Origin: Sandaracinus amylolyticus
Lineage (GTDB): Bacteria; Myxococcota_A; Polyangia; Polyangiales; Sandaracinaceae
NCBI RefSeq assembly: GCF_021631985.1
Contig: NZ_CP070225.1
Span: 1,550,001-1,614,000 of the forward strand
DNA length: 64,000 nucleotides
Reading direction: 5' to 3'
In this document: positions 32,370 to 60,905 of the stretch, one piece after another
Numbering within the stretch: the stretch's first letter is position 1
Layout of the letters: every line of letters starts with the position of its first letter
Made by a program: the position numbers and the translations under genes
The notes under the pieces: model-generated
Database searches by the model: none
What the model was told of the DNA's origin: nothing
What the model saw: the letters and a program-made list of their open reading frames with translations, nothing else

Positions 32370-33176
32370 ATGAACGCGACGATCGAATGGGCGCAGCTCA
32401 CACCGCAGCTCCGCGTGATGGCCACCGAGGAGCGCGCGCTGATCGTGCGCGCCGACGTGCAGCAGGACGCGCCGACGCTGCGCTTCGCGAGCGACGACGA
32501 TCACGAGCGCGCGACGCGCTGGCTGCTCGACGGTGCGATCCGCGCGGCGTTCTCCGCGGCGCGCGAGGAGCTCGTGCCCGCGATCACCCCGGTTCGCTGG
32601 GCCTGGCGCCTGGTGGGCCTCTATCACCTCACGCACTCGACGCCGCGCTTGCTCGAGGAGGCGGCGGCGCGCTTCGAGGCGAGCGGGCGCGGCGCGCTCG
32701 CGGAGTGGGCGCGCGAGCGAGCGCGCGAAGAGACGTTCCACGATCGGCTCGCGCTGCGTGATCTCGCGGCGATGGGCTACGACGCCGAGCGCGTGGTCGC
32801 GTCGGTGACCCCGCCGATCGCGGCCCGGCTCGTCGAGATCTTCACGCGCTACGCGATCGCGCCCGATCCCATCCGCTGCGTCGGCTACGCGTACGCGCTC
32901 GAGCGCCTCGCGACGACGGTGCGCGCGGAGGACGTGAAGCGCATCGAGGCGATCCTCCCGGATGGCATGCGCGCGACGCGCTGCCTGCGCGTGCACAGCG
33001 CGATCGGCAGCGACGGCGATCACGTCGCAGAGACGGTGCGCGTGGTCGCGCGCTGCAGCGGGAGCGAGCGCCGCGAGGTCGCCACGGCGGTGCACGAGAC
33101 GGCGCGCCTCTGCTTCGCGCCGCCGCCCGGCGGACATCCGACGGACGACGAGATCGCAGCGCTGCTCACGCGCTGA
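32370..33176 (+). CDS. Putative iron-containing redox enzyme (heme-oxygenase-like fold)
   Basis: A 268-residue, mostly helical cytosolic protein. REETFHDRLALRDLAAMGYD (about 117-136) has the acid/His pattern of the heme-oxygenase-like diiron oxidase (TenA/PqqC/HDO) superfamily. A late helix, RVHSAIGSDGDHVAETVRVV (about 209-228), offers His, Asp and His ligands, with two residues more than the usual H-x3-D-x2-H. Members include oxidases that cut, desaturate or decarboxylate small molecules and peptide-derived substrates. The N-terminal 50 residues (ALIVRADVQQDAPTLRF) are beta-like and less typical. It leads a + strand run with a tiny peptide gene, a halogenase and a peptidase/hydroxylase frame, so a role as a tailoring oxygenase is plausible. 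Exact reaction unknown. Confidence 0.55.
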   Translation: MNATIEWAQLTPQLRVMATEERALIVRADVQQDAPTLRFASDDDHERATRWLLDGAIRAAFSAAREELVPAITPVRWAWRLVGLYHLTHSTPRLLEEAAARFEASGRGALAEWARERAREETFHDRLALRDLAAMGYDAERVVASVTPPIAARLVEIFTRYAIAPDPIRCVGYAYALERLATTVRAEDVKRIEAILPDGMRATRCLRVHSAIGSDGDHVAETVRVVARCSGSERREVATAVHETARLCFAPPPGGHPTDDEIAALLTR

Positions 33177-33281
33177 GCGCGATCACCGCGAGACGAAAGA
33201 GCACGCGCGGGCCCGAGGGCTCGACGCGCGAACGGACGACGTGTGTCCACGACCCCCCAACCACTGCAGGAGAGAGAGCAC

Positions 33282-33437
33282 ATGGAGCGCAACGACAGCC
33301 AGCAGCAGCACGACGCGACGATCGACATGGAGACCCGCGAGGCGCGCGAGCGCTTCGAGGTGAAGGAGAGCGCGGAGACGCTCGAGGTCGTCGAGCTCGA
33401 GAGCGCGCCCCTCACCGACGTGAACTTCGGCTTCTGA
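33282..33437 (+). CDS. 51-residue peptide, candidate RiPP precursor
   Basis: A small gene with a good CAGGAG ribosome site nine bases before ATG 33282. The peptide is strongly acidic and helical through about residue 40 (leader-like, rich in Glu, Gln, Arg), then turns to LEVVELESAPLTDVNFGF at the C-terminus. It has no Cys, Trp, Tyr, Ser-rich or Gly-rich tail. The end supplies Asp, Asn and two Phe. Immediately downstream is a strong intrinsic terminator, and the next gene is a halogenase 72 bases away. Being short, having its own ribosome site and terminator, and sitting beside modification enzymes and a peptidase fit a precursor peptide. A plain regulatory or structural peptide cannot be excluded. 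Confidence 0.65.
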   Translation: MERNDSQQQHDATIDMETREARERFEVKESAETLEVVELESAPLTDVNFGF

Positions 33438-33445
33438 GACGCACT

Positions 33446-33490
33446 GCCCTCGGGCTCGTCGCGCACGAGCCCGAGGGCGCTGCCCCTTTT
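33446..33490 (+). terminator. Intrinsic terminator after the precursor gene
   Basis: A perfect 14-bp stem (gccctcgggctcgt, 33446-33459, with complement 33465-33478) and a 5-base loop are followed by gctgcccctttt. It sits between the peptide gene and the halogenase. Partial read-through would give much more peptide mRNA than enzyme mRNA, the usual arrangement in precursor-peptide operons. Confidence 0.85.
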
Positions 33491-33509: not shown

Positions 33510-35330
33510 ATGACGTCGAGCGTGGAGATGGTGGACTGCGTCGTGCTCGGGGGTGGGCCCGCGGGCAGCACCTTCGCGGCGATCGCGAAGAAGTACGCGC
33601 CCGAGGCGCGCGTCGTCGTGCTCGAGAAGGAGCGCTTTCCACGCTGGCGCATCGGCGAGTCGACGATCCCCGCCGCGAACGGCGTGTTCAAGGATCTCGG
33701 CGTGTACGACACGCTGCTCGCGTCGCCCTTCGTGAAGAAGATGGGCGTGACGTTCGTGTGGGGCCGCGATCGTCAGCCGTGGAACGCGGACTACCTCACG
33801 CTGCGCACCACGACGAAGCACGAAGGCGCGGAGATCATCGAGGTCACGGGGCAGGACTTCGAGGCGCTGCTCGGCGACGGCAACAAGCGCGACACGCCGT
33901 ACTCCGCGTTCAACGTCGAGCGCTCGAAGTTCGACGACATCCTGCTGCGCAACGCGGAGCGACTCGGCGTCGAGGTGCGCGAGGGCACGCGCGCGACCGC
34001 GGTGACGCGCGTCGACGGAACGAGCGCGCACGTGATCGCGTGGGAGGACGATCAGGGCGCGCGGGGCACGATCCGCACCGAGTTCGTGATGGACGCGAGC
34101 GGGCTCTCGAGCCTGCTGACGCGCGGCCAGCGAGTTCATGACGAGTCGCTCAACAACTTCGCGGTCTACGGATATCTGCGCAACGCGGAGTGGAAGGTCA
34201 CGTACAGCGGCACGAAGGATCGCTCGACGGTCTTCATCGCTGCGGTCGAGAAGGGATGGATCTGGTACTTCCCGCTCGGCGAGGACCTGATGACGGTCGG
34301 CGCGGTGACCAACACGCGCCACTTCAAGGATCGCTTGAAGGACGTCGATCTCGAGACGTTCTTCTGGGAGATGCTGCGCTCGTGCCCCGAGGTCGCGGGG
34401 CTCGTCGAGAGCGCGACGCTCCGCGACGACATCCTTCCGGGCAACGCGCGCGTCGGTGCCTGCCGCGACTGGTCCTCGTGGGCGCGCGAGCCGATCGGCG
34501 AGGGCTGGGCCGCGGCGGGGGATGCGGCGATGTTCGTCGATCCGATCCTCTCGACCGGCGTGACGCTCGCGCTGCAGACCGGACATCGCGCGGCGTACAC
34601 GTGGCTCACCGCGCGTCGTCGTCCCGATCTCCCGGCAGGCTCGTTGTGGCGCGCGTACGCGGACTATCTGCGCGGCGAGTACGGCGCGTTCCTGCGGCTC
34701 GCGCGCTACTTCTACGGCAACAACAAGGCCGCGCCCTCGTGGTGGTGGGAGGCGCAGCAGCTCGTGAACGCGTCGGGGCGCCTCGCGCTCAGCGATCGAC
34801 AGGCGTTCACGATGGCGACCGCGGGGTTCTTCCCGGTGCCGCGCGCGCTCGGTGCCGCGGCCGAGGTCGTGGTGCCGCTGCTGCAGGGCATCACCGGCGG
34901 TGCGCGCGGTCTCGAGCGCATCTACCAGGTGCCGGGCGTGCCCTCGCACGACGCGCTACCCGCGTGCGCGCTCGAGCTCGTCGCGCCGTTCCGCGTCGAC
35001 CTGCGCACCGAGCCGAACCTCGAGCGCGGCGTGATCGGATCGCTCGAGGTCTATCACGACCTCGTCACCGAAGAGCCCGACATGACGCACCGGCTCGCGG
35101 CGGTCCCGGCGCGCATCGATGCAGCGCTCGCGCCGATCGTCGAGGTGCTGCAGCGCTGTCGCACGGTGAGCGAGCTGCTCGAGCGCGCGCCGAGCGTGAT
35201 GCCCGCGAGCACCGATCCGAGCGTGGTGCGCAAGGCGGCCCTCGATCTCGTGCGCATCGCCGCGCTGAAGGGCTTCGTGCGCATCGTCGAGCCGCGCGTG
35301 TCGGTGACCGAGAGCGCGCCGTGCGGCTGA
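33510..35330 (+). CDS. Flavin-dependent halogenase-like protein with C-terminal helical (PqqD-like?) domain
   Basis: A 606-residue FAD enzyme. The nucleotide fold is at VVLGGGPAGST (12-22). FPRWRIGESTIP (43-54) and the Lys pair in FVKKMGVTFVWGR (74-86) match the halogenase GES region and catalytic Lys. GWIWYFPLG (249-257) is the WxWxIP halogenase motif with Phe for Ile. GDAAMFVDPILSTGVTLA (338-354) is the second FAD contact. Such enzymes chlorinate or brominate aromatic rings using reduced flavin. Beyond the usual fold, residues about 530-595 (IDAALAPIVEVLQRCRTVSELL to LDLVRIAALKGFVRIVE) look like a small winged-helix unit reminiscent of PqqD-type peptide-recognition domains. A GGAGG site precedes the ATG. 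The stop lies inside the next gene. A monooxygenase activity remains possible. Confidence 0.82.
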   Translation: MTSSVEMVDCVVLGGGPAGSTFAAIAKKYAPEARVVVLEKERFPRWRIGESTIPAANGVFKDLGVYDTLLASPFVKKMGVTFVWGRDRQPWNADYLTLRTTTKHEGAEIIEVTGQDFEALLGDGNKRDTPYSAFNVERSKFDDILLRNAERLGVEVREGTRATAVTRVDGTSAHVIAWEDDQGARGTIRTEFVMDASGLSSLLTRGQRVHDESLNNFAVYGYLRNAEWKVTYSGTKDRSTVFIAAVEKGWIWYFPLGEDLMTVGAVTNTRHFKDRLKDVDLETFFWEMLRSCPEVAGLVESATLRDDILPGNARVGACRDWSSWAREPIGEGWAAAGDAAMFVDPILSTGVTLALQTGHRAAYTWLTARRRPDLPAGSLWRAYADYLRGEYGAFLRLARYFYGNNKAAPSWWWEAQQLVNASGRLALSDRQAFTMATAGFFPVPRALGAAAEVVVPLLQGITGGARGLERIYQVPGVPSHDALPACALELVAPFRVDLRTEPNLERGVIGSLEVYHDLVTEEPDMTHRLAAVPARIDAALAPIVEVLQRCRTVSELLERAPSVMPASTDPSVVRKAALDLVRIAALKGFVRIVEPRVSVTESAPCG

Positions 35331-37669
35331 CGATCGAGCTCGTGCCGCGGGATCCGATCGCGCTGCGCGAGCTCGCGGACGCGGTATCGGATCCCAAGGC
35401 CGCGCAGTACGGCGCGTACCTCGATCGCGCTGCGCTCGAGCGTCGGATCGCGATCGATCCACGAGAGCGCGCCTCGATGCGCGCGTGGCTCGGGCGTCAC
35501 GGTGCCTCGCGCGCGCCGCGCGCGATCGACGGCCCTCGCTCGATCGTCGTGTCGATCGATGCCGCGGGTCTCGCAGCGATGCTCGGTGCGCCGACGGCGC
35601 GCGTGCTCGTGGGCGAGCGACGCCTCGGCCCCGAGCTCGCGCTCTCGCTCCCCGATCCATTGCGCGGACGCGTGCGAGCGCTCGCGCTCTCGAACGATCA
35701 CGTGACGCCCTCGTCGTCGCGACCGAGCGCGCCCGATCGTGTGGTCGCTCCGCCCGAGCGCGGCCTCGCGCCCGCCGACGTGCGTCGCGGCTATCGCTTC
35801 GATCCGAGCGTGCGTGGTGGGGGCGAGACCATCGCGGTGATGGCGCTCGGTGGCCTGCCGCGCGCCGAGGATCTCGACGGGTTCTGGCGCGCGCACGACG
35901 TGCCGCTGCCCGAGGTCGATCTCGTGCCGCTCACGGCGCTCGGTGCGTGTGCGAGCGATCCCAGCGCACGCTTCGAGACCACGATGAGCGTGCAGTGGAT
36001 CGGCGCGCTCGCGCCCGCCGCGCGCATCGTCGTCTACGTCATCGATCCCGCGCTGGTCGCCGATCCGTGGAGCACGTTCCTCGAGGCCGTGCTCGACGAC
36101 GCGGCGCGTGCGCCGACGATCGCGGTCACGAGCTGGAGCACGCCCGAGCGACAACATCGTCGCGTGCACGGTCGCGAGGGCTTCGCCGCGCTCCTCGATC
36201 AAGCAGCAGTCCTCGGCGTCAGCGTCGTCGCGGCGAGCGGGGACTGGGGCGCGTGCGGCGGGTTCCCGCGGGTGATGACGCCGGATGGACCGGTGTCGCC
36301 GTCGATCGCGCCGCACGCGACGTTCCCGGGCTGCGAGCCTCGCGTGCTCAGCGTCGGCGGCACCCAGGTGATCGACGTCGAGCGCTGGCGCGAGCGCGCG
36401 TGGAACGCGCCCGTCTCCGATGCGATCCGCGATGCAGTGCATCTTCCGCGGCTCGCGAGCGGCGGCGGCTTCAGCGAGACCGTCGCGATCCCCGCGTGGC
36501 AGCGCGACGTGCTCGCCAGGTCGTACGCGCGCAGCGACGGCACCGCGATCGTCCCGCAGGGTCGTGCGCAGCCCGACGTCGCGCTCGCCGCGTGGGGCCC
36601 CGATCACGCGTTTCGCGCGCTCCTCGACGGCACGTGGCGCGACGACGCGGGCGGCACCAGCCTCGCCGCGCCGATCTGGGCTGCCATCCTCGCGTGCGCG
36701 AACGAAGCGCGACGTCGCGTCGATCGACCGCGCGTCGGACACGTCGCGCCGCTGCTCTATGCGACCCCGGCGTTGCGCCCGATCACCGAGGGCGCGACCG
36801 ACCTCGATCTCCCCACGCTCGACCCGCACGGCCGTCGCACGTTCCTGCGTGTGCCCGGCTACGTCGCGACGAGCGCGTGGAGCCCCGCGACCGGCCTCGG
36901 CGTGCCCGACGTCGGCGCCCTGATCACCGCGATTGCTCGTAGAGAGGAGCCTCCGATGCGCGCCGCCATGTACCAGCGCAAGCACGTCCGCAGCGCGAAC
37001 GCCGCCGCCAAGGACTACGACTTCATCCGCCTCCCGACGCAGATCGACATCGCGCCGCTCGTCGACGAGCTCGAGCGCGCCGGCGCGCTGCCCTACGTGG
37101 CGAGCCTGTGGAAGTGGCACCGCGGCACGAAGTTCTGCGTGCTGCGCGCGGGCCCGCCGGGCGCGCTCCCCGGCGACGAGCTGATCACCGGCAAGGACGT
37201 CGATGCGCCGATCCTCGCGACGCTCCCGCGCTTCCGCGCGCTGCTCGACGAGATGTTCCCGGTGCGCGCTCCGCTCGCGTGGATCGGTCTCTCGCCCGCT
37301 CGCTCGCAGATCCGCATGCACGTCGACAACACGCAGCACTGGGACGAGCACCACCGCATCCACGTGCCGCTCGTCACCACGCCGGGCGCGCGCCTCATGG
37401 TGTCGGGTGGCTTCGTGCACATGCCCGCGGGCAGCGTCTGGGCGTTCAACAACAGCCGCCCACACGGCGCGATCAACACCGGCCCCGATCGACTGCACCT
37501 CGTGATCGATCTCGCGTCGACGCCCGAGGTCGAGGCGATGCTCGCGCGCGGCGAACGGGTGCGCGGAGAGCGCGATCGCGACGCGGTGATGGTGCTCTCC
37601 CGAGATCCGCTGGGCGACGGCGGCGCGGGAGAGCGCCCGGACGTGCTCGCGCGCATGCGAATGCAGTGA
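35321..37669 (+). CDS. Pro-S53 (sedolisin) peptidase fused in frame to an Asp/Asn beta-hydroxylase
   Basis: One open frame of 782 codons starting GTG, overlapping the halogenase by 10 bases. Residues 1-95 match the pro-kumamolisin activation domain (LVPRDPIALRELADAVSDP, QYGAYLDRAALERR). Residues about 145-538 are an S53 peptidase: Glu219 in RFETTMSVQWIGALAP, oxyanion Asp308 in AASGDWG, Ser447 in GGTSLAAP. The usual Asp four residues after the Glu is Ser223, so activity may be altered. Residues about 550-782 match aspartyl/asparaginyl beta-hydroxylases: MHVDN (His667, Asp669), NSRPHG (His715), Arg724 for 2-oxoglutarate. There is no signal peptide. At Met546 (36956) an internal AGAGGAG ribosome site could also start the hydroxylase alone. 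Proposed roles: leader removal and Asp/Asn hydroxylation of the upstream peptide. Confidence 0.8.
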   Translation: MRLTIELVPRDPIALRELADAVSDPKAAQYGAYLDRAALERRIAIDPRERASMRAWLGRHGASRAPRAIDGPRSIVVSIDAAGLAAMLGAPTARVLVGERRLGPELALSLPDPLRGRVRALALSNDHVTPSSSRPSAPDRVVAPPERGLAPADVRRGYRFDPSVRGGGETIAVMALGGLPRAEDLDGFWRAHDVPLPEVDLVPLTALGACASDPSARFETTMSVQWIGALAPAARIVVYVIDPALVADPWSTFLEAVLDDAARAPTIAVTSWSTPERQHRRVHGREGFAALLDQAAVLGVSVVAASGDWGACGGFPRVMTPDGPVSPSIAPHATFPGCEPRVLSVGGTQVIDVERWRERAWNAPVSDAIRDAVHLPRLASGGGFSETVAIPAWQRDVLARSYARSDGTAIVPQGRAQPDVALAAWGPDHAFRALLDGTWRDDAGGTSLAAPIWAAILACANEARRRVDRPRVGHVAPLLYATPALRPITEGATDLDLPTLDPHGRRTFLRVPGYVATSAWSPATGLGVPDVGALITAIARREEPPMRAAMYQRKHVRSANAAAKDYDFIRLPTQIDIAPLVDELERAGALPYVASLWKWHRGTKFCVLRAGPPGALPGDELITGKDVDAPILATLPRFRALLDEMFPVRAPLAWIGLSPARSQIRMHVDNTQHWDEHHRIHVPLVTTPGARLMVSGGFVHMPAGSVWAFNNSRPHGAINTGPDRLHLVIDLASTPEVEAMLARGERVRGERDRDAVMVLSRDPLGDGGAGERPDVLARMRMQ

Positions 37670-60871: not shown

Positions 60872-60905
60872 GCTACGGAATCCGTAGCGCTACGAATTCC
60901 GTAGC
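60872..60905. repeat. 34-bp palindrome overlapping a gene end, twin of 537-572
   Basis: Inverted arms of 17 bp with one mismatch (gctacggaatccgtagc / gctacgaattccgtagc). It is almost the same element as at 537-572. Here it covers the last codons and the stop of the minus-strand gene, which reads ...KLRNS and then TAG inside the palindrome. Confidence 0.8.

Follow-up and report, generated by a model that had tools for sequence, protein, structure and literature searches.

A 51-residue peptide gene beside oxygenase-type enzyme genes in Sandaracinus amylolyticus very probably encodes a RiPP precursor

The window analysed here is a stretch of 64,000 nucleotides from the 10.96-Mb, two-contig genome of Sandaracinus amylolyticus, whose relatives are myxobacteria, with Minicystis related at the order level and Nannocystis at the phylum level. 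Inspection of the forward strand reveals a heme-oxygenase-like putative oxidase gene, a small peptide gene, a stable hairpin, a gene for a flavin-dependent halogenase-type enzyme and a fused gene joining an S53 protease-like domain to a 2-oxoglutarate dioxygenase domain. All of these features lie in the same orientation.

The small gene runs from an ATG at 33282 to a TGA at 33437, is preceded by the Shine-Dalgarno sequence AGGAG at 33268-33272 and encodes the product MERNDSQQQHDATIDMETREARERFEVKESAETLEVVELESAPLTDVNFGF. Its GC3 is 51/51 (100%), which together with conservation of the protein in other genera provides strong coding evidence. The preliminary description of this DNA had proposed a small 51-codon gene with a good ribosome site, and the reading frame, the AGGAG element and the third-position composition all bear this out. 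The peptide is identical in G181, the second genome of the genus, where the gene differs at 1 of 153 nucleotides; divergence in the neighbouring genes is higher, at 7.3% for the oxidase and 5.6% for the halogenase. Judged from these comparisons, the small gene is real and under selection. Synonymous change in the precursor gene (33282-33434) is likewise rare: relative to G181, 1 of 51 third positions is altered, compared with 38 of 268 for the oxidase. This hints at either a constraint on the RNA or a limit on codon choice.

The window peptide matches no Pfam or NCBIfam family, RiPP family models included, and has no match to the proteusin/NHLP leader models (TIGR03793 / PF02979). Homologues of the peptide are nonetheless encoded directly upstream of the same halogenase in G181, in Minicystis rosea and at four Nannocystis loci, of which N. 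exedens accounts for two; here the halogenase homologues are 73-77% identical to that of the window (95% within the genus). These short-leader peptides end in PLTD(V/I)NFGF; their last nine residues are constant save for the V/I exchange, and their N-terminal parts vary. A further short precursor, in KLAP118, adjoins the oxidase gene and ends in APLSDFEPGF.

More distant halogenase homologues, about 53-58% identical, at first appeared to lack a peptide. Searches with the window peptide or with a short-leader profile missed every NHLP-type precursor, and only the oxidase gene led to them. When the upstream oxidase was used as the query, five MAG genomes were found to carry an oxidase gene with an adjoining precursor that has a nitrile-hydratase-like leader and ends in EPLSDENPGF, EPLTDDNAGF, EPLTDENAGF or LLGDANPGF (one full ending being KLLGDANPGF). 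These MAG precursors match TIGR03793 with E values of 5e-9 to 6e-12, and four of the five pass the PF02979 cut-off; against TIGR03793 the NHLP-type relatives score 36-45 bits, under its cut-off of 50.9. Four g77 genomes, all of one genus, encode a precursor ending in SPLHDYDPGF within the cluster, whose leader was judged by eye to be of the NHLP type; an all-against-all BLAST of small ORFs in the g77 loci returned mostly wrong-frame noise. NHLP-type leaders carry the core in nine loci overall.

Alignment of the 17 precursors defines a C-terminal core xPLxDx(N/D/E)xGF, which in the window is APLTDVNFGF (33405-33434), and all 17 keep its L, D, G and F. Unmodified PLTDVNFGF has an [M+H]+ of 1009.50. 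Since short-leader and NHLP clusters share both this ending and their enzymes, a single core occurs on two leader types in the company of the same enzymes. Every examined genome with a close halogenase (16/16) carries a core-bearing precursor near the oxidase or halogenase gene. The core motif was absent from 65 unrelated control loci (227 kb), a degenerate form of the pattern found no match in viral contigs, and LTDxNFGF matched only in G000 and G181 across the order. Because precursors with quite different leaders share this ending, we regard the peptide as very probably the precursor of a RiPP, that is, a ribosomally made, post-translationally modified peptide. What is found is a short encoded precursor whose core adjoins genes for modifying-type enzymes, and the earlier label of "precursor-like" gains strong support from the conserved core, the two alternative leaders and the co-conservation with those enzymes. 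Counting against such a reading, the five MAG genomes place the oxidase and precursor at one locus and the halogenase at another.

We also considered whether the short peptides are truncated NHLP leaders, and the profiles do not support this. Full short-leader and NHLP profiles align with a score of 30.8; of 200 column shuffles, 199 stayed at or below 18.8 and one gave an anomalous 133.5. Profiles stripped of their last 10 columns align at noise level (8.15).

The enzyme genes begin with the oxidase (32370-33176), which lies beside a precursor in 13 loci. It falls just below the family cut-off of PF14518 (Pfam E 3e-6). Its AF2 model (pLDDT 87) has the heme-oxygenase-like fold, with Foldseek matches to 3dde, UndA, CADD, PolF and PqqC. 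Residues E121, H124, H209, D215 and H218 are invariant among homologues and are candidate metal ligands, although the His/Asp spacing, HxxxxxDxxH, is unlike the HxxxDxxH of known heme-oxygenase-like diiron oxidases. Among the sampled genomes, those with an oxidase homologue are nearly the same as those with a halogenase homologue. In G370 (C228:83435-84058, L120), an oxidase homologue occurs without a close halogenase and without a recognisable adjoining xPLxDxNxGF precursor.

Downstream, the flavin-dependent halogenase-type enzyme (33510-35330; PF04820, E 4e-30) finds its best sequence and fold matches in CndH of the chondrochloren pathway (3e1t) and CmlS of the chloramphenicol pathway (3i3l). 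It carries the GxGxxG motif, the lysine, the FxxPxxSxG motif and the fold of the CmlS/CndH type. K77, which occupies the catalytic lysine position, is invariant, as is FxDPxLSxG, and both presumably have the functions known from the family. CndH and CmlS act in polyketide or non-ribosomal pathways; in contrast, the window gene adjoins a gene for a precursor peptide. The reaction may be halogenation or a QhpG-like hydroxylation, as far as the sequence indicates. Flavin halogenases usually act on Trp or Tyr, and the core contains neither, which counts against the RiPP reading.

Residues 487-593 or thereabouts (34968-35288) form a putative C-terminal winged-helix-like domain, predicted in the AF2 model as three strands followed by four helices (bbb-aaaa). 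The domain has no sequence match in Pfam or the PDB, and scores 24.4 against a PqqD profile versus at most 14.3 in 60 column shuffles, with a probability of only 21%. A second look at the flavin enzyme mainly reflects its catalytic domain and bears little on the C-terminal one. CmlS also carries a C-terminal winged helix. The strand-helix order bbb-aaa defines RiPP recognition elements (PMC12710340), and QhpG is a CmlS-like flavoprotein with a C-terminal winged helix that acts on a small ribosomal polypeptide (PMC7876137). Because QhpG and CmlS both have a winged helix at this place, the domain in the window need not be a recognition element. Halogenase homologues that accompany short-leader precursors (35288-35327 in the window; L051-L055) have a Cys near the C-terminus (APCG, EPCISV, VACA, EVCR), and the other homologues end before that region. 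Elsewhere, two PqqD-like proteins are encoded on opposite strands within 1.3 kb (G000:C1:2785266-2786557; L079, L086) and are kept in G181, and they probably belong to another RiPP-type cluster.

The last gene is an in-frame fusion of an S53 sedolisin-like protease domain (35321-36952; PF09286) and a 2-oxoglutarate dioxygenase domain of the Asp/Asn (or Pro) hydroxylase type (36953-37669; PF05118). The first part has the pro-domain and sequence-family features of S53 proteins, but alignment with kumamolisin reveals an incomplete triad in which Ser and Glu are kept and the catalytic Asp (Asp82, here Ser) is replaced by S, A, G or T in 13/13 homologues. Cleavage by this domain is uncertain because the catalytic Asp is missing. 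Among the loci seen, the fusion (35321-37669) is confined to this genus and the two domains are separate genes elsewhere; of the two cluster copies in N. exedens (L054, L055), one has an S53 protein without the hydroxylase and the other a hydroxylase without S53.

Between the precursor and halogenase genes lies a terminator-like or attenuator-like hairpin. Its perfect 14-bp stem, GCCCTCGGGCTCGT/ACGAGCCCGAGGGC, closes a 5-nt CGCGC loop (33446-33478), extends imperfectly to 33441-33483 and is followed by the tail CCCCTTTT (33483-33490), which has four T at 33487-33490. Perfect stems of at least 14 bp with loops of 3-8 nt number 5 in the 64-kb window versus 0.08 expected under a first-order Markov model, and 0 of 300 shuffles of the hairpin's own spacer matched it. 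Separately, near-perfect palindromes at 533-576 and 60872-60905 share GCTACGGAAT...CGTAGC units and perhaps represent a dispersed repeat family. Rfam gave nothing above threshold, the weaker matches being chance similarity to a microRNA hairpin. The perfect stem and tail ahead of the halogenase had been described beforehand and are confirmed; the accompanying claim of a strong intrinsic terminator goes further than the sequence of the window allows. The GC-rich stem is present and the T-tract is weak, and a consensus terminator scan of the window did not list the hairpin, because its T run is short and is preceded by four C.

Comparison across relatives adds to this picture. All seven short-leader clusters contain a long GC stem between precursor and halogenase, where the stems comprise at least four unrelated sequences: GCCCTCGGGCTCGT in the window and G181, GCCGCCGGCCCG in Minicystis, CGCCGCGGAGCCG in three Nannocystis loci and ACGCCGCGGGGC in the second N. 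exedens copy. A simple stem search beat 300/300 dinucleotide shuffles in six of the seven spacers; the Minicystis spacer gave no score there, its loop being too long, and its folding energy beat 200/200 shuffles. A shared position combined with unrelated stem sequences argues for a selected element.

Such an element could instead stabilise the 3' end of the mRNA or mark a processing site. We hold this to be a possible reading and a less likely one, to which the high stability of the stem and the short T-tract after four C lend some weight. Against it, several relatives have good T-tracts immediately 3' of the stem, with tails better than that of the window in Minicystis (TTTTTCTC) and Nannocystis (CTTTTTTT and CCTCTTTT). 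In the window, a promoter 3' of the hairpin would not fit into the 31 nt that separate the stem end at 33478 from the start of the halogenase gene. This makes partial termination with precursor above enzyme likely, and the halogenase would most simply be expressed by read-through or from a promoter inside the small gene. Lasso peptide clusters are described in which a terminator-like repeat follows the precursor gene, ahead of the enzyme genes, and is proposed to be regulatory (PMC5974421). The window hairpin likewise separates a precursor gene from downstream enzymes, in a setting that is unlike lasso clusters in its unrelated precursor and in that no lasso cyclase genes were seen. By this analogy, the hairpin probably attenuates transcription and keeps the precursor above its enzymes. 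Upstream, the oxidase-precursor spacer (33177-33281) includes a GC stretch resembling a hairpin, GCGCGGGCCCGAGGGCTCGACGCGCG, which is unchanged in G181 and has GCCCGAGGGC in common with the terminator stem. An alternative pairing between the two is possible on sequence grounds.

The explanation we favour, and regard as likely, is a RiPP precursor whose core is modified by the neighbouring enzymes and whose hairpin stops part of the transcripts. The core (about PLTDVNFGF) would be oxidatively modified by the heme-oxygenase-like enzyme, the CmlS-like flavin enzyme and the Asp/Asn-hydroxylase domain. For the PF05118 hydroxylase domain, the invariant Asp is the natural candidate target, and either the flavin enzyme or the oxidase may act on the invariant C-terminal Phe, the sole invariant aromatic residue of the core. 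The CmlS-like enzyme may grip the peptide via its winged-helix-like domain. The enzymes would recognise the C-terminal part of the peptide, comprising the hydrophobic LEVVEL-like segment and the core, in place of the leader, where LEVVEL fits the pattern LXXXXL and relatives retain the segment loosely. The sedolisin-like domain may release the core, possibly inefficiently, or may merely bind it. With part of the transcripts stopping at the hairpin, precursor mRNA would exceed enzyme mRNA. Speaking against this explanation, no transporter was found among the adjoining genes examined, in the part of the neighbourhood that was scanned.

Two described systems come closest to the window. SrpI is a flavin-dependent halogenase that brominates Trp, the C-terminal precursor residue; it has no embedded recognition domain and needs only the loose C-terminal part of the leader, guided by an LXXXXL pattern (PMC10858898). 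Relatives of the window cluster resemble the SrpE/SrpI proteusin brominase system in using NHLP leaders. The window itself is unlike SrpE/SrpI in that its core lacks Trp, its precursor lacks an NHLP leader and its flavin enzyme, of the CmlS/CndH type, ends in a winged-helix-like domain. QhpG adds two hydroxyl groups to Trp once radical SAM cross-linking has taken place, and its operon includes a serine protease gene (PMC7876137). In common with QhpG/QhpC, the window pairs a CmlS-like flavin enzyme bearing a winged-helix-like domain with a protease-family gene; in contrast, the surroundings of the precursor showed no radical SAM gene, and Trp is again missing from the core. The window system is thus RiPP-like, nearest to SrpE/SrpI and QhpG/QhpC and a member of neither, and the open literature searched (most subscription journals lay outside its scope) holds no description of this gene combination.

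A different role could attach to the same mechanism, with a conserved product that works as a redox cofactor or signal, following the logic of PQQ and mycofactocin, and not as a defensive natural product. This is compatible with the RiPP explanation as a mechanism and differs in role. In contrast to the cores of antibiotics, this one hardly changes from genus to genus or family to family; almost every enzyme is an oxygenase, and the oxidase has a PqqC-type fold. A short conserved peptide together with an oxidase of heme-oxygenase-like fold also recalls PQQ biosynthesis (PqqA/PqqC), from which the window departs by lacking a Glu-Tyr pair in the core and by drawing its other enzymes from different families. 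The distribution is patchy, however, with the oxidase or close halogenase present in about 11-12 of roughly 360-380 sampled genomes of the phylum, and no dependent dehydrogenase was identified beside the cluster. We regard a cofactor or signal role as conceivable and somewhat doubtful.

It is improbable, in our assessment, that the peptide serves the oxidase or the flavin enzyme as a small partner or activator protein, with its C-terminal tail acting as a docking motif. Conservation of the tail while the remainder drifts would suit a partner, as would the constant proximity to enzyme genes, and the loss of the catalytic Asp from S53 in 13/13 homologues means that a release step may be absent. 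Yet NHLP-type leaders are a known RiPP precursor leader family and bear this tail in nine loci, and a docking tail needs neither a protease nor three oxygenase types nearby. A reading in which the enzymes produce some unrelated small molecule, with the peptide beside them by chance, is barely credible: the CmlS/CndH-like flavin family does act mostly on small molecules or carrier-bound substrates, but the same core lies near the oxidase or halogenase in 16/16 genomes, on two leaders and in several gene orders.

Returning to the RiPP explanation, a bolder form of it would be a new class of Myxococcota RiPP, in which the core PLxDx(N/D/E)xGF rides on two unrelated leaders served by the same processing enzymes, and recognition is placed in the core region for that reason. 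The CmlS-like enzyme would then halogenate or hydroxylate a residue that is not activated, for example the invariant C-terminal Phe, to yield a conserved, cofactor-like product. We put this forward tentatively, as a speculative extension. If the RiPP explanation is true, the locus would represent a coherent and testable family of myxobacterial RiPPs that includes the cultured genera Minicystis and Nannocystis. It would provide a flavin halogenase-type enzyme for peptides without Trp or Tyr, a heme-oxygenase-like oxidase whose substrate is made ribosomally and a natural example of one core borne by different leaders, and the hairpin would allow attenuation between a precursor gene and its enzymes to be studied cleanly by comparison.
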